Shown: positions 37,476 through 55,402 of the stretch, piece by piece
Position numbering within the stretch: position 1 is the first letter of the stretch
Layout of the letters: every line of letters begins with the position of its first letter
Source: Aquisphaera giovannonii
GTDB lineage: Bacteria > Planctomycetota > Planctomycetia > Isosphaerales > Isosphaeraceae
Direction: 5' to 3'
DNA length: 64,000 nucleotides
Assembly (NCBI RefSeq): GCF_008087625.1
Contig: NZ_CP042997.1
Location: 4,588,001 to 4,652,000 of the forward strand
Translations under genes and position numbers: made by a program
Notes under the pieces: generated by a model
The model's input: the letters and a program-made list of their open reading frames with translations, nothing else
What the model was told of the DNA's origin: nothing
The model's database searches: none

Positions 37476-38474
37476 TCACAGGCGGTCGAGGGGGCTGATG
37501 ACGCCGCGGGCTCCGGCCTGGAGCACGTGGGTGTAAACCATCGTGGTGGAGACGTCCGCGTGCCCGAGCAGCTCCTGGACGGTGCGGATGTCGTGGCCGG
37601 CCTCCAGGAGGTGGGTGGCGAAGGAGTGGCGGAAGGAGTGGGGGCTGGCCGGCTTGGCGAGGCCGGCGGCGAGGACGGCCTGATGGACGCGCTTCTGGAC
37701 CATGTTCTCGTGGACGTGGTGGCGGCGGAGCGGGCGGGAGTCGGGGTCGGCCCGGTCGTCGCGCGGGTCGCGGCTGAGCCGGGACGAGGGGAAGAGGTAT
37801 TGCCAGCCGAGCTCGCGGTCCGCCGCGGGATACTTGGCGGCGAGGGCGTGCGGGAGGAAGACGCGGCCGCGGCCCCGCTCGACGTCGCGGGCATGGACAC
37901 GGGCGACGGCCGCGACCTGGTCCCGGAGGCGGTCCTCCAGCGAACGGGGCAGGGGGACGGATCGATCCTTGTCGCCCTTGCCCTCGCGGACGAGGACCTG
38001 GCGGCGGTCGAAGTCGAGGTCCTTGACGCGCAGTCTACAGCATTCGAGGACGCGGAGGCCCGAGCCATACATCAGCTCGGCCATGAGCTTCCACGGGTCA
38101 TCCATTCTGCATAACACGGCGCGCACCTCGTCGACGGAGAGGACGACGGGGAGGCGTTTGGGCCGGACGGCGCGAACCGAATCGATGCGGGGCAGGTCGA
38201 TCTCGAGGACATTCCGATAGAGGAAGAGGATCGCGGCGAGGGCCTGGTTCTGGGTGCTCGCCGCGACATGCTCGCGAACGGCCAGGTGCGTGAGGAAGGC
38301 GGCGACCTCGCCCGCCCCCATCTCCCGCGGATGCCGCTTGCCATGGAAGAGGATGAAGCGGCGGATCCAGCCGACATACGCCTCCTCGGTGCGGATGGCG
38401 TAATGGCGGGTCCGCAATCGATCCCTCACCTGAGCGAGGAGCCTCGGCGGATTCGGCGGAGTCCGCATCGACAT
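37476..38474 (-). CDS. intI: integron integrase IntI
   Basis: A 332-residue tyrosine recombinase. The N-terminal SAM-like domain begins LLAQVRDRLRTRHYAIRTEEAYVGW. The catalytic domain has R141 (GSGLRVLECCRLRV), K166 (EGKGDKDR), H279 and R282 (SPHSFRHSFATHLL), H305 (LLGHADVSTT) and nucleophile Y314 (VYTHV), so all active residues are present. The IntI-specific insertion that distinguishes integron integrases from XerC/D is seen at about 210-230 as ALAAKYPAADRELGWQYLFPS. IntI recombines attI with folded attC sites to insert and excise cassettes. It is transcribed away from the array, the standard integron layout. A 16-nt palindrome upstream (38567-38582) may control it. Confidence 0.95.
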   Translation of the reverse strand: MSMRTPPNPPRLLAQVRDRLRTRHYAIRTEEAYVGWIRRFILFHGKRHPREMGAGEVAAFLTHLAVREHVAASTQNQALAAILFLYRNVLEIDLPRIDSVRAVRPKRLPVVLSVDEVRAVLCRMDDPWKLMAELMYGSGLRVLECCRLRVKDLDFDRRQVLVREGKGDKDRSVPLPRSLEDRLRDQVAAVARVHARDVERGRGRVFLPHALAAKYPAADRELGWQYLFPSSRLSRDPRDDRADPDSRPLRRHHVHENMVQKRVHQAVLAAGLAKPASPHSFRHSFATHLLEAGHDIRTVQELLGHADVSTTMVYTHVLQAGARGVISPLDRL

Positions 38475-38566
38475 CGCGGCCGGTCTTTGTGGTCGTGGTG
38501 GGATCGGTATGCGTCCCCTTGCCCCACGGCCCGGAGCGCGTCATATTGAAGCCGGTAAGTCCGCCC

Positions 38567-38582
38567 TGTTTTGTACAAAACA
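38567..38582. promoter_or_regulatory. perfect palindrome upstream of intI, candidate operator
   Basis: TGTTTTGTACAAAACA is a perfect 16-nt palindrome about 93 bp before the intI start and 109 bp before the attI crossover. It is AT-rich in a GC-rich genome, which makes chance occurrence unlikely. In other bacteria intI is repressed by LexA through an operator in this position; whether this is a planctomycete LexA site is inference. It could equally control the cassette promoter. Confidence 0.5.
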
Positions 38583-38640
38583 ACAGTACCCGTGTCGAGA
38601 GGCTAGAGCCCTGTCCCGAACATTTCGCCCGCCGGTCTTA

Positions 38641-38697
38641 TGCAGAATCCGGGCGCGTGTTATGAGGAATTAGGATTCTGTCTAATCACTGTTAGGC
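38641..38697 (+). other. attI-like primary recombination site
   Basis: The first cassette begins at GTTAGGC (38691-38697), so crossover is between G38691 and T38692. Upstream there is an inverted repeat CAGAATCC (38643-38650) / GGATTCTG (38673-38680), then TCTAATCACT. No attC-type long stem is present left of this point, as expected for attI. The segment CTAATCACTGTTAGGCGGC recurs once more at the end of cassette 1. The assignment rests on its position between intI and the first cassette. Confidence 0.75.
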
Positions 38698-38705
38698 GGC
38701 ACACG

Positions 38706-38936
38706 ATGGAACCTACGCCGGAGGCGAGAGCGGAGGCAAGGCGCAACCCCGGCGGCTGGGTCTACGCCATCGATCCGCGGTACGACCCCGACGGTGCCGT
38801 TCCGCCCGAGGGGATCAAAGGCGCGTGGAAGGTCGATGAGCGAGGGGATATCGTGGGCGAGTTCATCCCCAATCCGAGGTATCAGCCTGAGGGCTCCGTC
38901 CAGCCCAAGCCGTGCGCGGGTAGACCGGACGCCTAA
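38706..38936 (+). CDS. cassette 1: hypothetical protein, copy A of a duplicated cassette
   Basis: A 76-residue protein beginning MEPTPEARAEARRNPGGWVY. It has WVYAIDPRYDPDG, GIKGAWKVDERGDIVGEF and IPNPRYQPEG, and looks like a compact beta-rich domain; no function is known to me. The stop codon TAA is part of the box GCCTAA that opens the recombination site. The 246 bp from GTTAGGC to GCCTAA (38691-38936) are identical to 39712-39957. Unlike copy B, this copy has no full attC but an 18-nt hairpin. Confidence 0.8.
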   Translation: MEPTPEARAEARRNPGGWVYAIDPRYDPDGAVPPEGIKGAWKVDERGDIVGEFIPNPRYQPEGSVQPKPCAGRPDA

Positions 38937-38969: not shown

Positions 38970-39278
38970 ATGAGCGAACGCAAGCGGCTACTGAAGCTCG
39001 CCTCTCGCATCCCGCCGGAGCGTATCGCTGGGGTGCTTGAGGTCGCAGATGACATACCCTCCGGCTATTTCCTTATCGGCGACGACCCGGATCACTACCT
39101 TGTCTGCTGCTGGCACGTCGCAAACGGGCTGATGAGCATGATCATCGAGGACGACGCCTTGGCGGTGGCCTGCAAGCGGTATCTGCTGGCGAATGGTGCA
39201 CCGGTCTTCCGATCAACTGAGGAGGCCGAGGCACATGCGGCGGCACAGGGGTGGCCTGGCCGTCGGGCCAACGCCTAA
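38970..39278 (+). CDS. cassette 2: hypothetical protein
   Basis: A 102-residue soluble protein beginning MSERKRLLKLASRIPPERIAG. A central IPSGYFLIGDDPDHYLVCCWHVANGL is followed by a helical part and an EEAEAHAAAQGW end. I recognise no family. The stop TAA lies inside the GCCTAAC box of the following attC. The upstream spacer from the site box to the ATG is 21 nt, with only a weak ribosome binding site. Confidence 0.75.
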   Translation: MSERKRLLKLASRIPPERIAGVLEVADDIPSGYFLIGDDPDHYLVCCWHVANGLMSMIIEDDALAVACKRYLLANGAPVFRSTEEAEAHAAAQGWPGRRANA

Positions 39279-39372
39279 CCTCACGCTGCAGCGGACCCCG
39301 CACCGCCGCGACGCTTCGGGTATTATCAAGCCTCACTCGGCGGTGCGGGTCCGCTGAGCTTTGGCGTTAGGC
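39273..39372 (+). repeat. attC site after cassette 2
   Basis: Outer boxes GCCTAAC (39273) and GTTAGGC (39366). Inner arms GCAGCGGACCCCGCACCGCC and GGCGGTGCGGGTCCGCTGAG pair with one unpaired base on the left arm. The loop contains GTATTATCAAG. 100 nt. Confidence 0.9.
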
Positions 39373-39379
39373 GGCGTTC

Positions 39380-39595
39380 ATGACGCTTGATGAGTCACGC
39401 GACGTCGAAAGCCAAACTCCGCGTTGGCGTTTCAAACTGCGAACGCTCATGATCGCGATCGCCTTGCTGGCACCAGTTCTGTACTTGCTCATCCAATTGA
39501 TTAGAGCGTGCTGGGCATTGGAGGACTTCTACCGCCCCGGAGGACGACTGGATCGGATTCGGAGGGGACTGCCAGATCCCGGGCCACGCTGGTAG
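39380..39595 (+). CDS. cassette 3: small single-pass membrane protein
   Basis: A 71-residue protein: a hydrophilic N-terminus, RWRFKLRTLMIAIALLAPVL and LYLLIQLIRACW forming one transmembrane helix, and a short Arg-rich C-terminal tail. The RFKLRTLM... opening is common on planctomycete one-pass proteins. The start is 8 nt after the site box with no obvious ribosome binding site. Base use is clearly less GC-rich than in the chromosomal genes, suggesting recent acquisition. Unlike most cassettes, its stop (TAG) is 22 bp before the attC. Confidence 0.75.
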   Translation: MTLDESRDVESQTPRWRFKLRTLMIAIALLAPVLYLLIQLIRACWALEDFYRPGGRLDRIRRGLPDPGPRW

Positions 39596-39616
39596 GGGCG
39601 GCGGCCGCAAGTTCCC

Positions 39617-39718
39617 GCCTAACGTGGCGCTGCAGCGGACCCCGCACCGCCGCGGCGGCTTCTTCCTCAATTCAAGGTCCGCTCGGCGGTGCGGGTCCGC
39701 TGAGCTTTGTCGTTAGGC
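39617..39718 (+). repeat. attC site after cassette 3
   Basis: Boxes GCCTAAC (39617) and GTTAGGC (39712), with the standard inner stem. Loop CTTCCTCAATTCAAGG, without the TATCAT motif. 102 nt. Confidence 0.9.
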
Positions 39719-39726
39719 GGCACACG

Positions 39727-39957
39727 ATGGAACCTACGCCGGAGGCGAGAGCGGAGGCAAGGCGCAACCCCGGCGGCTGGGTCTACGCCATCGATCCGCG
39801 GTACGACCCCGACGGTGCCGTTCCGCCCGAGGGGATCAAAGGCGCGTGGAAGGTCGATGAGCGAGGGGATATCGTGGGCGAGTTCATCCCCAATCCGAGG
39901 TATCAGCCTGAGGGCTCCGTCCAGCCCAAGCCGTGCGCGGGTAGACCGGACGCCTAA
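39727..39957 (+). CDS. cassette 4: hypothetical protein, copy B of a duplicated cassette
   Basis: Encodes the same 76-residue protein as 38706-38936, with no base difference across the 246-bp cassette body. This copy keeps its own full attC, so it is the likelier parent. Identity at the DNA level shows the duplication is recent, i.e. the array has changed recently, or that the two copies were mis-assembled. The TAA stop overlaps the GCCTAAC box. Confidence 0.8.
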   Translation: MEPTPEARAEARRNPGGWVYAIDPRYDPDGAVPPEGIKGAWKVDERGDIVGEFIPNPRYQPEGSVQPKPCAGRPDA

Positions 39958-40052
39958 CGTGTCGCTGCAGCGGACCCCGCACCGCCGCGCCACTTTTCCT
40001 GCTATGGTTGGTCTGCTCGGCGGTGCGGGGCCGCTGAGCTTGGGTGTTAGGA
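39952..40052 (+). repeat. attC site after cassette 4
   Basis: Boxes GCCTAAC (39952) and GTTAGGA (40046); the last base of the second box differs from the consensus. Inner stem standard. The loop contains TGCTATGGT at 40000-40008. 101 nt. Confidence 0.88.
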
Positions 40053-40066
40053 CGACGGGGGAGGCC

Positions 40067-40270
40067 ATGAGCACGCGGAGGCGGAAGCTGGCCGGTGAAC
40101 TCGGCCCCTTTGTGCAGCAGTACCGCCGCAAGAGCTACGCCACTCACGACCCGAACGATCGCCGCTACGACCGCGAGCTTGAAGCCAAGATCAAGCGGAT
40201 GCCTCCCGAAGAACTCGACAGGCTGCTCCACGGAGACATCGACGACGAGACGGAGGCGGGCCACTCCTAA
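40067..40270 (+). CDS. cassette 5: small charged hypothetical protein
   Basis: A 67-residue protein beginning MSTRRRKLAGELGPFVQQYRRKS with an acidic C-terminus (LLHGDIDDETEAG). The middle, DPNDRRYDRELEAKIKRMPPEELDRLL, is helical. GGGGGAGG lies 2-7 nt upstream of the ATG, a strong ribosome binding site. The TAA stop is within the following site box. No family recognised; the size and charge split would fit an antitoxin, but nothing in the cassette encodes a partner. Confidence 0.7.
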   Translation: MSTRRRKLAGELGPFVQQYRRKSYATHDPNDRRYDRELEAKIKRMPPEELDRLLHGDIDDETEAGHS

Positions 40271-40366
40271 CGTGGCGCTGCAGCAGACCCCGCACCGCCA
40301 CATAGGCTTCTCGACTATCATTGGTTCGCTTGGCGGTGCGGGTCCGCTGAGCTTGGGTCGTTAGGC
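40265..40366 (+). repeat. attC site after cassette 5
   Basis: Boxes TCCTAAC (40265) and GTTAGGC (40360). Left arm has GCAGCAGACCCCGCACCGCC, one base off the common arm. Loop contains CTATCATTGG. 102 nt. Confidence 0.88.
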
Positions 40367-40381
40367 GGCGGAGGAACGTTG

Positions 40382-40687
40382 GTGCGGCTGACCCCGGCAC
40401 AAGTCGGCATGTTAGGCTTGCTCGGGCAACTGCTGCCGATGGGCATGCCGCGGGACCAGTCGTTGGCCGACCGCATCCGAGACGGCCATACCTTCCTGGT
40501 TCGCATCGCCAAGGTTGACCTCGGGTACGACCCGCAGGCGTGGCATGAGCACCTTCGCGACACCAATGCGGGGGGCTATCGTTGGAGCAATAAGCACCTC
40601 GGCTTCCCGCGGCGGATCGCCTCGGCCCTCGCCGACCCGGAGTGGCAGCGGGCCGTTGCTGTCCTGCGGGGCGAGCCCGGCGCCTAA
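40382..40687 (+). CDS. cassette 6: hypothetical protein
   Basis: A 101-residue protein starting at GTG (VRLTPAQVGMLGLLGQLLP), with GGAGGA 6 nt upstream inside the cassette's conserved 5' border. Main segments are SLADRIRDGHTFLVRIAK, LGYDPQAWHEHLRDTNAGGYRW and PRRIASALADPEW. No known domain. TAA stop in the GCCTAAC box. Confidence 0.72.
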   Translation: MRLTPAQVGMLGLLGQLLPMGMPRDQSLADRIRDGHTFLVRIAKVDLGYDPQAWHEHLRDTNAGGYRWSNKHLGFPRRIASALADPEWQRAVAVLRGEPGA

Positions 40688-40781
40688 CGTGGCGCTGCAG
40701 CGGACCCGGCCCGCCGCGGCGGTCGCTGGTACAATCGAGGTCCTGCTCGGCGGGCCGGTCCGCTGAGCTTTGGTGTTAGGC
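40682..40781 (+). repeat. attC site after cassette 6
   Basis: Boxes GCCTAAC (40682) and GTTAGGC (40775). The stem uses GGACCCGGCCCGCCGCGG / CGGCGGGCCGGTCCG, with compensating changes in both arms relative to its neighbours. Loop has TGGTACAATCG. 100 nt. Confidence 0.9.
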
Positions 40782-40792
40782 GGCTCTGTCAT

Positions 40793-41059
40793 ATGGCCGG
40801 GGTCAAGCATCTGATGGAGGCGGTGCGACAGGTTCTCCTACGGGAGTGGGATCCGATCGGGGTCGCCGACAACCCGGCGTGCTTTGATGAGTACGACCGC
40901 TATGCCCGCACGATCTGCCGCTATCTCGAAGAGGGCGTCGATGAGTTCAAGCTCACGGCGTACTTGGGCCAAGTACAGACCGTCGGGATGGGACTGTCGC
41001 GGGCCGACGCGGAGCGTGATAAGTTGGTCGCGCGACGCCTGATGGCCCTCTCGGTATGA
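40793..41059 (+). CDS. cassette 7: conserved hypothetical protein
   Basis: An 88-residue all-helical protein beginning MAGVKHLMEAVRQVLLREWDP, followed by FDEYDRYARTICRYLEEGVDEFKLTAYLGQVQT and a C-terminal RDKLVARRLMAL. Similar short proteins with a VLLxEWDPIGV opening occur widely in bacteria without known function. Start ATG is 12 nt after the site box. TGA stop just before GCCTAAC. Confidence 0.75.
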   Translation: MAGVKHLMEAVRQVLLREWDPIGVADNPACFDEYDRYARTICRYLEEGVDEFKLTAYLGQVQTVGMGLSRADAERDKLVARRLMALSV

Positions 41060-41060
41060 C

Positions 41061-41162
41061 GCCTAACTTCGCGCTGCAGCGGACCCCGCACCGCCGCGGC
41101 GGCATCTCCTGCGAATCAAGGTCAGCTCGGCGGTGCGGGTCCGCTGAGCTTTACCGTTAGGC
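41061..41162 (+). repeat. attC site after cassette 7
   Basis: Boxes GCCTAAC (41061) and GTTAGGC (41156), standard stem, loop CTCCTGCGAATCAAGG. 102 nt. Confidence 0.9.
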
Positions 41163-41413
41163 AGGAACGCCGCGAAGCGCCTGGAACTTGCCGCTGCTTG
41201 ACGCGGCCGTTACGCTGGGACGAGGCGCGTGAGCTCGCTCGCGGCGGAGCGCACCCGCGTAACTCGGCGGGGCTCGATCGGAGGCTCGTGCGGCGTTCTG
41301 CCTAACCGCCGGCTAGACAGAACGCGTGGCGTTCTGCCTAACCACTCGGCGTTGAAGCAGAATCGGGGACCGATTCTGCTTAACACCTCATTAGGCAGCT
41401 CGGAGCCCTCCCG
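41163..41413 (+). other. cassette 8: apparently geneless cassette with attI-like end
   Basis: No frame here has a ribosome binding site or recognisable product. The 3' part is dense in inverted repeats: AGAACGC-GTG-GCGTTCT at about 41318-41335 and AGCAGAATCGG / CCGATTCTGCT around GGA at about 41357-41380. Boxes GCCTAAC occur at 41300 and 41336, GCTTAAC at 41378, and ATTAGGC at 41390. The last 40 nt resemble the attI region (CAGAATC...GATTCTG then TAA-CAC-TTAGGC), not the other attC sites. Confidence 0.55.
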
Positions 41414-41665
41414 ATGGACATCGCCTGCCGAAGTTGCGGCGCATCCGTTGGCCGACTCCACGAGCCCTACTGCAGCAGCGAATTGTGTCCTTTCTGCGGC
41501 GACTTCATCAGCACCTGCGACTGCATCTTCGAGGTGCTCTCGCTAACCCCCGAGGAACGCGAACTCGTCGAGGAGTTCGCGGACGACTCGGTCCAGCCGC
41601 TCCGTGGCATCTGCGACCGCTGGCGCGCGGCAGTTGAGGCCAAGGGGCGTGTCCCGTACTCATGA
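41414..41665 (+). CDS. cassette 9: zinc-ribbon-like small protein
   Basis: An 83-residue protein. The N-terminal part has paired cysteines, MDIACRSCGASVG and ELCPFCGDFISTCDC, suited to binding zinc. The C-terminal half is acidic and helical (LTPEERELVEEFADDSVQPL). Probably a cytoplasmic zinc-binding protein; no specific family is recognised. Its TGA stop is 20 bp before the attC. Confidence 0.72.
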   Translation: MDIACRSCGASVGRLHEPYCSSELCPFCGDFISTCDCIFEVLSLTPEERELVEEFADDSVQPLRGICDRWRAAVEAKGRVPYS

Positions 41666-41685
41666 GTCGGCGCCTGCCGGCATCC

Positions 41686-41785
41686 GCCTAACGTGGCGCT
41701 GCAGCGGACCCCGCACCGCCGCGGCGCTCACTGTGCTATCGTGGTCATCTCGGCGGTGCGGGCCCGCTGAGCTTGGTCGTTAGGC
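41686..41785 (+). repeat. attC site after cassette 9
   Basis: Boxes GCCTAAC (41686) and GTTAGGC (41779), standard stem, loop with TGCTATCGT at 41734-41742. 100 nt. Confidence 0.9.
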
Positions 41786-41802
41786 GGCGGAGGACACGGC
41801 GC

Positions 41803-42213
41803 GTGCGGATCATCCCTCTGTTGGAATCCGGCCACCCCGATGTCCGGCCCGACCTCGGGCCCCTGGCCGGCCACGAGCATCCCTGGACGGCGCGCAAGGG
41901 GCGGATGCTCCTTGACCTGGTGGCTCACCTGGAGTCGCGGGGGCCGGCACCCGACGCCTTCGCATATGTCGCCGGCGACGAGCTTTGGCTCTATCCGGCG
42001 AATCGGCACAATCGCGCGCGGGTCCAGGTCGCGGTCGTCTGGCGCGACTACGGCCCTGTGCGCGACGGCTATCCCGAGATGTACTATCGCCTGAGCGTGA
42101 GGCGGCCTGGGGCGCCGGGCAGCGAGGAGCGGGCTCGCGAGTTGTCCGAGGTCGAAGACCACATTCGAAGGGCATTCGGGTGGTCGGCCCCGGCGGCCAG
42201 CGACCCCGCCTAA
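41803..42213 (+). CDS. cassette 10: hypothetical protein
   Basis: A 136-residue protein starting at GTG (VRIIPLLESGHPDVRPDLG) with GGAGGA 9 nt upstream, again within the cassette border. Segments RKGRMLLDLVAHLESRG, AYVAGDELWLYPANRHNRARVQVAVVW and YPEMYYRLSVRRPG suggest an alpha/beta fold. No family recognised. TAA stop in the GCCTAAC box. Confidence 0.72.
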   Translation: MRIIPLLESGHPDVRPDLGPLAGHEHPWTARKGRMLLDLVAHLESRGPAPDAFAYVAGDELWLYPANRHNRARVQVAVVWRDYGPVRDGYPEMYYRLSVRRPGAPGSEERARELSEVEDHIRRAFGWSAPAASDPA

Positions 42214-42308
42214 CCTCGCGCTGCAGCGGACCCCGCACCGCCGCGGCCCTCCTGGTATCATCGGGGCTCTAATCGGCGGTGCGGGTCCGCTGATCTTTGG
42301 TGTTAGGC
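42208..42308 (+). repeat. attC site after cassette 10
   Basis: Boxes GCCTAAC (42208) and GTTAGGC (42302), standard stem, loop with TGGTATCAT at 42253-42261. 101 nt. Confidence 0.9.
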
Positions 42309-42368
42309 GGACGCGGTCGTCACGGACGGGCCGTTGTTGTGGGGGTCGTGGGGCGGTATGCTGCGCGG

Positions 42369-42605
42369 ATGCCGACCGTGTTGCGCAGTGGGCCTTACCG
42401 CTTCTTCTTCTACTCCGGGGATCGGGAGGAACCGGCGCACGTTCACGTCGAACGCGACGACTGCGAGGCGAAGTTCTGGCTCGACCCGGTACGCCTGGAG
42501 CGAAGCCGGGGGTTCGCCCGTAAGGAAATCGGTCTGCTCCAGGGGATCGTCGAGGAGAACCGGCAGCGACGGCTGGAGAGCTGGCATGACTACTTCCGCG
42601 GCTGA
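42369..42605 (+). CDS. cassette 11a: DUF4160 family protein
   Basis: A 78-residue protein with the DUF4160 pattern: MPTVLRSGPYRFFFYSGDRE, EPAHVHVERDDCEAKFWLDP, GFARKEIGLLQGIVEENRQ and a LLESWHDYF-like end. DUF4160 genes are usually followed by DUF2442, as here, and the pair is regarded as a putative type II toxin-antitoxin-like module without firm experimental proof. The next gene overlaps its end by 20 nt. It is one of two cassettes carrying two genes; the other is hicAB. Confidence 0.85.
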   Translation: MPTVLRSGPYRFFFYSGDREEPAHVHVERDDCEAKFWLDPVRLERSRGFARKEIGLLQGIVEENRQRRLESWHDYFRG

Positions 42606-42903
42606 GACCCGATCCACCACGGCCACAAACCTGGTCGTCACGGAAGATACCCTGAGCGTCGAGCTATCCGATGGCCGCTCGATAGCGGCTCCGTTGGCCT
42701 GGTATCCCCGGCTGCTCCACGGCACCCCCCAGGAGCGAAGCCGCTGGCGGCTGATAGGTCAGGGCCGCGGCATCCACTGGCCCGATCTCGACGAGGACAT
42801 CAGCGTCGAGGCCCTGCTGGCAGGCCGGCCGTCAGGCGAGAGCCACGCATCATTCAAGCGGTGGCTCGAGCAGCGAGGCGCTCCCGTCGTGGAGCCCGCC
42901 TAA
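42586..42903 (+). CDS. cassette 11b: DUF2442 family protein
   Basis: A 105-residue protein. The DUF2442 core is VVTEDTLSVELSDGRSIAAP, LAWYPRLLHGTPQERSRWRL and GIHWPDLDEDISVEALLAG. The first 15 residues are Thr/Ser-rich and precede the family core. It overlaps the DUF4160 gene by 20 nt, indicating coupled translation. The TAA stop lies in the attC box. Family knowledge suggests it is the partner of DUF4160 in a small regulatory or toxin-antitoxin pair. Confidence 0.85.
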   Translation: MTTSAAETRSTTATNLVVTEDTLSVELSDGRSIAAPLAWYPRLLHGTPQERSRWRLIGQGRGIHWPDLDEDISVEALLAGRPSGESHASFKRWLEQRGAPVVEPA

Positions 42904-42998
42904 CCGCATGCTGCAGCGGACCCCGCACCGCCACGGTGGTTATCGCACAATCGAAGGTCGCTCGGGCGGTGCGGGTCCGCTGAGCTCGGTCGTTAGGC
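42898..42998 (+). repeat. attC site after cassette 11
   Basis: Boxes GCCTAAC (42898) and GTTAGGC (42992). Stem standard with minor changes (CGCATGCTGCAGCGGACC left). Loop has GCACAATCGAAGG. 101 nt. Confidence 0.9.
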
Positions 42999-43018
42999 GG
43001 CTCAAGCGCGTTCTCGAC

Positions 43019-43276
43019 GTGATCGGGCTGAACCCGCGATGGACCTTCCGATACCCGCACCTGGCGGCTGTCGGACCGGGCGTCCTCCTGGTCTTCGCAT
43101 CGGGAGATTCGCCCTCGCCACCTGTCGCCGGTGGTGTCGTCCAAGTCGAGCGTCGCGACGGCACCATCGCTGCTTACGAGGTGTTCTTCAGCGAGCGGCG
43201 TCCCGGGGCTTTCGGGGTGGCGATCCCGGGCCTCGATGCAGCGGAGATCGACATCGGTGCAAACGTCGAGTGGTAA
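43019..43276 (+). CDS. cassette 12: hypothetical protein, start uncertain
   Basis: About 85 residues if it starts at GTG 43019 (VIGLNPRWTFRYPHLAAVG); the frame is open further back through the site box, and the true start may differ. Segments PGVLLVFASGDS, GGVVQVERRDGTIAAYEVFF and GVAIPGLDAAEIDIGANVEW are beta-rich. No function recognised. The TAA stop is 17 bp before the attC. Confidence 0.65.
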   Translation: MIGLNPRWTFRYPHLAAVGPGVLLVFASGDSPSPPVAGGVVQVERRDGTIAAYEVFFSERRPGAFGVAIPGLDAAEIDIGANVEW

Positions 43277-43293
43277 GGCTGGCTCGGGGGGCC

Positions 43294-43394
43294 GCCTAAC
43301 CCGGCGCTGCAGCTGACCCCGCACCGCTGCGACGCCCTTCGTGCTATCATGGCTCATATCGGCGGTACGGGGCCGCTGAGCTTATGCGTTAGGC
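43294..43394 (+). repeat. attC site after cassette 12
   Basis: Boxes GCCTAAC (43294) and GTTAGGC (43388), loop with TGCTATCAT at 43342-43350. This is the last site with both boxes canonical before decay sets in. 101 nt. Confidence 0.9.
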
Positions 43395-43410: not shown

Positions 43411-43800
43411 ATGCCGTGGAGCGGGGGTTACGAGGCGTTGCGTCAATACCTCCGCGACTTCACCGACATCGGCGGCGATCCGAGCTACGACACGAGCGGC
43501 ATCCTCATGCTCCTCCTGGCGCTGGCCGACAACCTGAGAGAATCGCCCGAAGCGTTGGCCGATCTGCCCGAGTTGGGTGAGACGATCGAGCCTGAGCAAG
43601 CTGCTTTCCTTGAGCAAATGTCCCGCTGGGCCACGGCCAGCCGAACCGCCCGACCTCGTGCTGCAGTGGACCCGGCCCCCGCGGCGAGCTCTGGTAACAT
43701 CAAAACTCCTCGCGGCGGGCCGGTCCGCAGTGCTTGGTCGTCAGGCGGCCCGCCCTGCTCGTCATGGAGGGGAAGTTGCCGAGGAAGATCCGCGATCTGA
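43411..43800 (+). CDS. cassette 13: hypothetical protein reading through its lost stop
   Basis: The gene proper encodes about 79 residues: MPWSGGYEALRQYLRDFTDIG, DTSGILMLLLALADNLRESP and EQAAFLEQMSRWATASRTA. In sister cassettes the stop is the TAA of GCCTAAC. Here the box is GCCCGAC, so the codon became CGA and the frame continues through the whole attC and into the next cassette, to 43800. The last 50 residues are therefore probably non-native. The extended frame overlaps the hicA start in another frame. No family recognised. Confidence 0.6.
   Translation: MPWSGGYEALRQYLRDFTDIGGDPSYDTSGILMLLLALADNLRESPEALADLPELGETIEPEQAAFLEQMSRWATASRTARPRAAVDPAPAASSGNIKTPRGGPVRSAWSSGGPPCSSWRGSCRGRSAI
43648..43746 (+). 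repeat. decaying attC site after cassette 13
   Basis: Boxes GCCCGAC (43648) and GTCAGGC (43740): both have lost the TAAC/GTTA core. The inner stem GTGGACCCGGCCCCCGCGGC / GCGGCGGGCCGGTCCGCA is partly kept. Loop TGGTAACATC. 99 nt. Confidence 0.82.
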
Positions 43801-43979
43801 CGAACGACCTGATCGACGCCGGGTTTTCGATCGTTCCCGGCGGCGGCAAAGGGTCGCATCGAAAATTCACGCACCCGAATTACGCAGGGGTCGTGACCCT
43901 CAGCGGTCAGGACGGCGACGACGCCAAGTTCTATCAGGAGAGACAGGTCAAGCGAGCGATCGAGGAAGTGAACAGATGA
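43764..43979 (+). CDS. hicA: cassette 14a: HicA family toxin
   Basis: A 71-residue protein with the small dsRBD-like HicA fold: LPRKIRDLTNDLIDAGFSIV, the catalytic-His motif GGKGSHRKFTHPNYAG (GSH), and a C-terminal RQVKRAIEEVNR. HicA is an mRNA interferase neutralised by HicB. The ATG is 17 nt after the site box. It overlaps hicB by 4 nt (ATGA), the usual hicAB order. Toxin-antitoxin cassettes are common in chromosomal integrons, where they are thought to stabilise the array. Confidence 0.88.
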   Translation: MEGKLPRKIRDLTNDLIDAGFSIVPGGGKGSHRKFTHPNYAGVVTLSGQDGDDAKFYQERQVKRAIEEVNR

Positions 43980-44197
43980 AGCCAATCGACGCCTATCATC
44001 GCTGGGTGGAGTGGAGCGATTCAGATCAAGTCTACATAGGTAAATGTCCAGACTTGATCACGGGAATCCACGGCGACGACCCGGTCCAGGTCTACAAGGA
44101 ACTCGGGGAAGTCATCCAGGAGGTCATCGACCACTTCCAGCGGACGGGCCGGGAACTCCCCCCCCCGCGGACGCGGCCGATGATGGAGGTTTCCTAG
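43976..44197 (+). CDS. hicB: cassette 14b: HicB family antitoxin, short form
   Basis: A 73-residue protein with the HicB partial RNase-H fold: VEWSDSDQVYIGKCPDLITG, IHGDDPVQVYKELGEVIQEV and IDHFQRTGRELPPP. It lacks the C-terminal DNA-binding (HTH or ribbon-helix-helix) domain of longer HicB proteins, so it should neutralise HicA but may not autoregulate. Translation is probably coupled to hicA through the ATGA overlap. It is followed by a hairpin and a decayed attC. Confidence 0.85.
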   Translation: MKPIDAYHRWVEWSDSDQVYIGKCPDLITGIHGDDPVQVYKELGEVIQEVIDHFQRTGRELPPPRTRPMMEVS

Positions 44198-54815: not shown

Positions 54816-55402
54816 CGGTTGCATTGGTATGGCGGGGTCGGGGCAGGGGGCAGGGCCCCAGCGATGGGCGACCCGGCGGCGGCCATGCCCCGGTCGGGAC
54901 GCCCCCGTTGGCCGGGGCGCCCCCGGCCCGATCAACCGATGTGATGAATCGGCTCCAGCCCGCCGTCGGGCCTCCCGGTCGAGGCCCATCTAACCCCGTC
55001 CGACCATTCGCGACGTGGGCGATGCCACGCGCGTGACCATCCATCGCGGCCGGGTCGATCGCCTCAGGGCGTTTCCAACCCCTCGCCGCGCGAGTCATCA
55101 CATGCGCATTGGCGGCGTCGAGGCGGGGGAATTCCCCCGCCTCGACGCCGCAGATGTGTCGAGGAGACTGAGGCGGACGGTTCAAGGATGAGCCGGGCCG
55201 CCGGAATCGACCGGGGGCGAGCCCTCCGTGCGCCGGGACGCCCCGGGCGGAACCATCGCTGGCAGGCCATCCGTCACCTCGCCTTCTCCGCGGTCCTTGC
55301 TCCGGCGTCCTGACGACGAGAGGTCGATCGGGATGGCATGCTCGGTGCGTAGGGGCCCGGCGTGCCGCGGGCGGTACCCAGGCCGTTGGACTTCGTCGCC
55401 AG
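54816..55402. other. intergenic region with a 40-nt perfect palindrome
   Basis: No gene is supported in 587 bp between the small lipoprotein (rightward) and the DUF2961 gene (whose 3' end is at 55403). The only clear feature is the palindrome at 55112-55151, listed separately. Confidence 0.4.
55112..55151. terminator. perfect 40-nt palindrome, possible bidirectional terminator
   Basis: Two 18-nt arms (GCGGCGTCGAGGCGGGGG and its exact reverse complement) flank AATT. It lies between two converging transcripts. There is no U-run on either side, so an intrinsic terminator is plausible but not proven; a protein-binding or REP-like role is also possible. Confidence 0.5.

Follow-up and report, generated by a model that had tools for sequence, protein, structure and literature searches.

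A recA-type box overlapping an AT-rich palindrome before the integron integrase gene of Aquisphaera giovannonii, and its possible reading by LexA

In the SOS-controlled integrons of Vibrio cholerae and of class 1, the integrase promoter Pint is under LexA control via a CTGT-N8-ACAG box (PMC3108266, PMC8946536). A link between DNA damage and the capture of cassettes is regarded as central to integrons, and in the literature covered this link is documented only with the beta/gamma-proteobacterial LexA box. According to PMC3108266, LexA boxes are present in 624 of 1103 intI upstream regions, all of the E. coli type; Rhodopirellula lacks such a box, which is explained there by the different LexA motif of the Planctomycetes. 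A search at the level of titles and beginnings of abstracts, with subscription papers mostly outside its coverage, found no report of a planctomycete-type LexA box at intI. A phylum-specific LexA box before intI would be new.

The locus described here lies in a 64,000-nucleotide stretch of the Aquisphaera giovannonii genome (the window). It has in common with the Vibrio cholerae and class 1 integrons an intI gene divergent from attI and the cassette array, a host with LexA and RecA, and a predicted LexA-type box in the integrase promoter. A LexA-regulated integron should combine an integrase with attI and attC sites, a host lexA and recA, and a host-type box in the intI promoter region. The integrase gene (37476-38474, minus strand) encodes 332 amino acids with matches to TIGR02249 (456 bits), PF00589 and PF13495. 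It is accompanied by an attI crossover, GTTAGGC, at 38691-38697 on the plus strand, and by a cassette array at 39273-43394 on the same strand with nine full attC sites of 100-102 nt each. The host encodes both recA and lexA, the latter with DNA-binding and S24 domains. The box in the intI promoter region is recognized by sequence only, through a recA-derived matrix, and its assignment to LexA is a matter of interpretation. Integrases of the intI kind occur in 10 of 45 genomes of the family and in 115 of 397 genomes of the class, and the two genomes of the same genus are without an intI match at the threshold used for the 45 family genomes. One class relative (G700) has five integron integrase matches, with 47-49% identity to the IntI of the window.

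A sequence-only reading of the window had drawn attention to a perfect 16-bp palindrome, TGTTTTGTACAAAACA, between intI and attI, and had suggested that this AT-rich sequence in a GC-rich genome could be an operator for intI or the cassette promoter, possibly one for LexA. The palindrome is indeed found at 38567-38582, 93-108 nt ahead of intI and between this gene and the attI crossover. Its length alone is not rare, since the window has 5 perfect palindromes that are 16 bp or longer, and 59 were counted in 800 kb of this genome. Its composition is: no other of those in the window has a GC content of at most 25%, and none of the 59 falls within this limit. The rarity is softened by the composition of the intI-attI spacer, whose GC content of 58% is below the 72% of the window. 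The longest palindrome of the window is a perfect, GC-rich one of 40 bp at 55112-55151.

The expectation that the palindrome would recur in the genome, especially before lexA and recA, was not borne out. When up to three mismatches are allowed, TGTTTTGTACAAAACA has a single copy in the window, where shuffles give a mean of 0.01, and that copy is the only one in the 10.5-Mb genome. It is thus missing from lexA and recA, and an operator that intI would share with these genes is rejected. Its inner 12-mer has one additional genomic place at one mismatch. Among 392 genomes of the phylum only the window's own contains the palindrome, and it is absent from all seven readable intI upstream regions of the family, the very outcome that the earlier reading had named as speaking against its proposal. 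A recurring symmetric operator of a regulon is rejected on these grounds. Palindromes of at least 12 bp ahead of intI in other genomes were found at 4 of 75 loci, compared with 8% in shuffles (80 loci less L103, L075, the latter being too short, and three more).

Alternatively, the palindrome could serve as a genuine symmetric operator for some other dimer-forming regulator of intI or of the cassette promoter, which a cassette or a further mobile element might encode; any likeness to recA promoters would then be accidental. Perfect symmetry over 16 bp, rare for an AT-rich sequence in this genome, and the placement over a possible -10 element would suit such an operator. However, with one genomic copy the regulator would own a single site, the seven family relatives that could be read lack the palindrome before intI, and no candidate regulator was seen among the cassette ORFs. 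We regard this explanation as quite unlikely, and the symmetry as probably incidental.

The part of the earlier proposal that finds support in silico, an operator at intI that may belong to LexA, attaches to a box that overlaps the palindrome and not to the palindromic symmetry. A matrix of width 20 was iterated on recA promoters only; these came from 30 family loci out of the 42 recA matches that 41 family genomes contain. In a scan of both strands of the window (about 128,000 positions), its top site is 38569-38588 on the minus strand, TACTGTTGTTTTGTACAAAA, with 18.2 bits, and the runner-up has 4.6 bits. The host's own recA site scores 23.2 bits. The core of the site, TGTTG-TTTT-GTACA (38572-38585, minus strand), agrees with the commonest recA bases at 9 of 10 core positions, has a G where 27 of 30 recA sites have a C, and overlaps both TGTTTTGTACAAAACA and the possible -10 of intI. 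In 3000 dinucleotide shuffles, the spacer never reached the score of this site. The core pattern TGWTSNNNNGWACA has 24 places genome-wide, with 13 matches per strand as compared with 1 for the reversed pattern. When these places are ordered by the recA matrix, recA (23.2) is followed by position 1284316 (21.9), intI (18.2) and position 5522726 (16.0), and all others have at most 11.4. The 20-mer TGTTGTTTTGTACAAAACAG is absent from viral contigs. The box at 1284316 (L189), which ranks second in the genome among those of recA type, is located between a gene of the uracil-DNA-glycosylase family (PF03167) and an ORF of 98 aa that matches nothing in Pfam or NCBIfam, and the gene at this box is a candidate for a new SOS gene.

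Palindrome and box may both be without function, the former a chance mirror in an AT-rich promoter stretch and the latter a resemblance of this stretch to a matrix that is itself derived from AT-rich promoters. When the AT-rich core of 40 bp was shuffled 3000 times, the score of the intI site was attained once. In 800 kb of the own genome one site has at least 18 bits in the recA matrix, and because this site (19.1 bits) sits within an ORF, scores this high can be spurious. In a symmetric class-wide matrix, the intI box has a modest 8.9 (p 0.028). Scores of 9 or more occur at 18 places in 800 kb with this matrix, which was built from the 15 recA sites outside the family with a score of 9.5 or higher, a selection biased towards the motif. 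Against an absence of function, the site tops the window both with a uniform background (14.5, next 5.4) and, narrowly, in the symmetric matrix (next 7.6; the overlapping palindrome itself scores -24.2), and some planctomycete groups have intI boxes more often than other phyla do. We judge the absence of any function to be unlikely.

The element from which the matrix derives has the form TGWTC-N4-GTACA and directly follows the -10 in recA promoters of the family. The strict pattern recovers it in 16 of 30 loci, and the iterated matrix assigns a site to all 30, with 14.6 to 34.1 bits. Outside the families numbered f1, f106 and f110, a good site is missing from most recA promoters. The LexA motif of the Verrucomicrobia, said to have been described by Erill et al. 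in 2016, is reportedly TGTTC-N4-GAACA, and we know of no integrase target for a LexA motif of this type. The own recA element, TGTTC-GTAA-GAACA, fits this motif exactly, whereas most family recA sites have GTACA instead of GAACA as the right half.

The element is read as a LexA box because it also precedes imuA-imuB and a Y-family polymerase gene and, in weak form, lexA. In three class relatives it lies far ahead of an IMS domain, with scores of 20.1 (L184), 15.9 (L175) and 14.4 (L176). At L184 it precedes by 22 nt an ImuA-like gene (NF033429, 111 bits, under the cut-off of 150), which is followed by an IMS-domain protein; the L175 and L176 elements are assigned to putative imuA-imuB genes by their similar distance from the IMS domain. 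A test of imuB by exact pattern matched only 1 of 29 loci, and the matrix was adopted instead. Of 18 family loci with a Y-family polymerase gene, 17 were scored (L183 is a partial match), and at 13 of them the element precedes the gene with p<0.05; the own copy has 12.7 bits. In the four misses (L156, L157, L159, L163), the genome has two IMS genes, and the one scored here is the higher-scoring.

The lexA promoters carry two weaker forms, TGTTC-TCGC-GTGCG and TGATC-GTCC-GTGT, and with 3 of 30 at p<0.05 by matrix the fit is weak (31 loci were used, of which L028 is too short for matrix scoring). TGTACA of the lexA promoters was rejected as the box, as by eye it falls in their apparent -10. The lexA upstream regions (L012, L016-L045) hold a strongly conserved block, TGTTCTCGCGTGCGCTAG...TGTACATTAGC, and many of these 31 loci have TGATCGTCCGT as another block; the strongly conserved block exceeds the length that a LexA box needs. 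From the gene context and the Verrucomicrobia motif, we infer that LexA binds elements of the TGWTC-N4-GTACA type.

The element recurs before some other intI genes. When the best recA-matrix score in the region -250 to +15 was compared with 400 shuffles of each upstream region, 10 of 110 planctomycete intI genes had p<0.01 and 20 of 110 had p<0.05, as compared with 1 and 2 of 56 in other phyla. The hits at p<0.01 were in f101 (5/35), f1 (2/8), f110 (1/7), f106 (1/4) and f2 (1/32), with none in f3 (0/23) or f104 (0/1). The symmetric matrix, applied to -150 to +15, gave 9 of 110 planctomycete intI genes at p<0.01 against 0 of 56 in other phyla, and 20 of 110 against 4 of 56 at p<0.05; by family it found f101 6/35, f1 2/8, f110 1/7, f106 0/4, and 0/56 for f2, f3 and f104 together. 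By this matrix a convincing box is absent before the family intI genes of L004, L006 and L009. Grouping f1, f101, f106 and f110 gives 9 of 54 at p<0.01; this grouping was chosen after the results, and binomial values for it are too optimistic since relatives of the same family are not independent. The 110 upstream regions are part of the intI matches, with contig-end, short and weaker ones set aside (e.g. L008, L010, L234, L288), and the control consists of 56 of 80 loci, from which partial or short ones and those with titles such as Planctomycetota or Pirellula had been removed. The intI boxes vary in position and sequence among genomes, which amounts to repeated occurrence and not to alignment-level conservation.

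The box at intI might also be a beta/gamma-proteobacterial one that arrived with the integron, whether or not it is recognized by the host LexA. The intI site CTGTTGTTTTGTACAA is one mismatch off CTGT-N8-ACAG, and 2 of 8 family intI upstream regions are within one mismatch, where 0.1 would be expected. The exact box is therefore lacking, although its presence would define the proteobacterial variant and not SOS control as such. The predicted box here is of the planctomycete recA type, TGWTC-N4-GTACA, and differs from the CTGT-N8-ACAG described for Vibrio cholerae and class 1 in PMC3108266 and PMC8946536, but the frame TGT-N8-ACA is common to both motifs, and one mismatch also separates 8 of 24 distinct recA sites from the E. 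coli type. Within one mismatch there are 4 of 32 upstream regions in f2 (1.4 expected) and 1 of 4 in f106 (0.2 expected). The E. coli-type box is not enriched in f101 (0/35, 1.4 expected), f3 (0/23, 1.0 expected), f110 (0/7) and f104 (0/1), or in other phyla (2/56, 2.0 expected), and with no general enrichment before intI it is rejected as a general explanation. The nearest IntI proteins found, with 67-68% identity, are from class relatives, which also speaks against such an origin. We do not favour an inherited proteobacterial box, which we consider decidedly improbable.

The box is placed where a repressor could act. By eye, a possible promoter of intI consists of TCGACA (-35, 38593-38598, minus strand) and, at 17 nt from it, TACAAA (-10, 38570-38575, minus strand), which overlaps the box and the palindrome. 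The box core, 38585-38572, occupies most of the spacer between the two and part of the possible -10. A consensus scan of the intI-attI spacer listed neither a sigma-70 promoter, this pair included, nor a terminator. The own recA promoter has TTGACT-N17-TATATT running into its box, and in the family relative L007 TTGACA-N16-GATAAT runs into TGTTC-GGAT-GTACG before intI, in the same arrangement as in recA. At the family locus L005, TGAAC-GCTC-GTATA lies across the TATAAT.

LexA control of intI is the explanation towards which we lean, with some reserve: LexA would repress the intI promoter through 38569-38588 (minus strand) as its operator, and DNA damage would induce the integrase. The host's own LexA, bound to this operator, would cover the spacer and -10 of the putative promoter TCGACA-N17-TACAAA and block RNA polymerase. 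Upon DNA damage, activated RecA would cause LexA to cleave itself, and integrase would be made, as happens in Vibrio and class 1 integrons, though here by way of a planctomycete-type box. The palindrome would then be a chance mirroring between the AT-rich spacer of the box and its GTACA half-site. The match, its rank, and the presence of the element at SOS-type genes and some other intI genes are observations; its identity as a LexA box, the binding of LexA at this place, the promoter and the induction by damage are predictions from the sequence.

A broader proposition, which to us seems nearly balanced, with a slight tilt to doubt, is that the LexA box of the phylum itself has placed chromosomal intI genes of several planctomycete families under SOS control. 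If true, it would mean that LexA control of intI evolved, or was kept by retuning, outside the Proteobacteria, and it would contradict the published view of the E. coli-type box as the sole control of intI. A planctomycete-type box at intI would indicate that the coupling to damage was selected in a distant phylum with a different LexA motif. The data provide a testable LexA motif for planctomycetes, and predict which of their integrons would be damage-inducible.

Some further features of the attI region and the array may be mentioned. The single-strand structure of 38555-38700 is on a par with chance (z -1.49; 14 of 200 shuffles equally good). A 13-nt inverted repeat (38638-38650 and 38673-38685, 85% complementary, 22 nt apart) immediately precedes the attI crossover and may be part of attI. 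Among the cassette ORFs, 42369-42602 encodes a DUF4160 protein and 43734-43976 a HicA-type toxin (PF07927); the ORF that follows the latter, 43976-44194, appears HicB-like by eye, without a Pfam match. One cassette is present as two identical copies of 246 bp, at 38691-38936 and 39712-39957. The first of these ends with the 18-nt GCCTAATCACTGTTAGGC and not with an attC of 101 nt. This end resembles GTCTAATCACTGTTAGGC at attI, and perhaps reflects a recapture or a deletion at this site.
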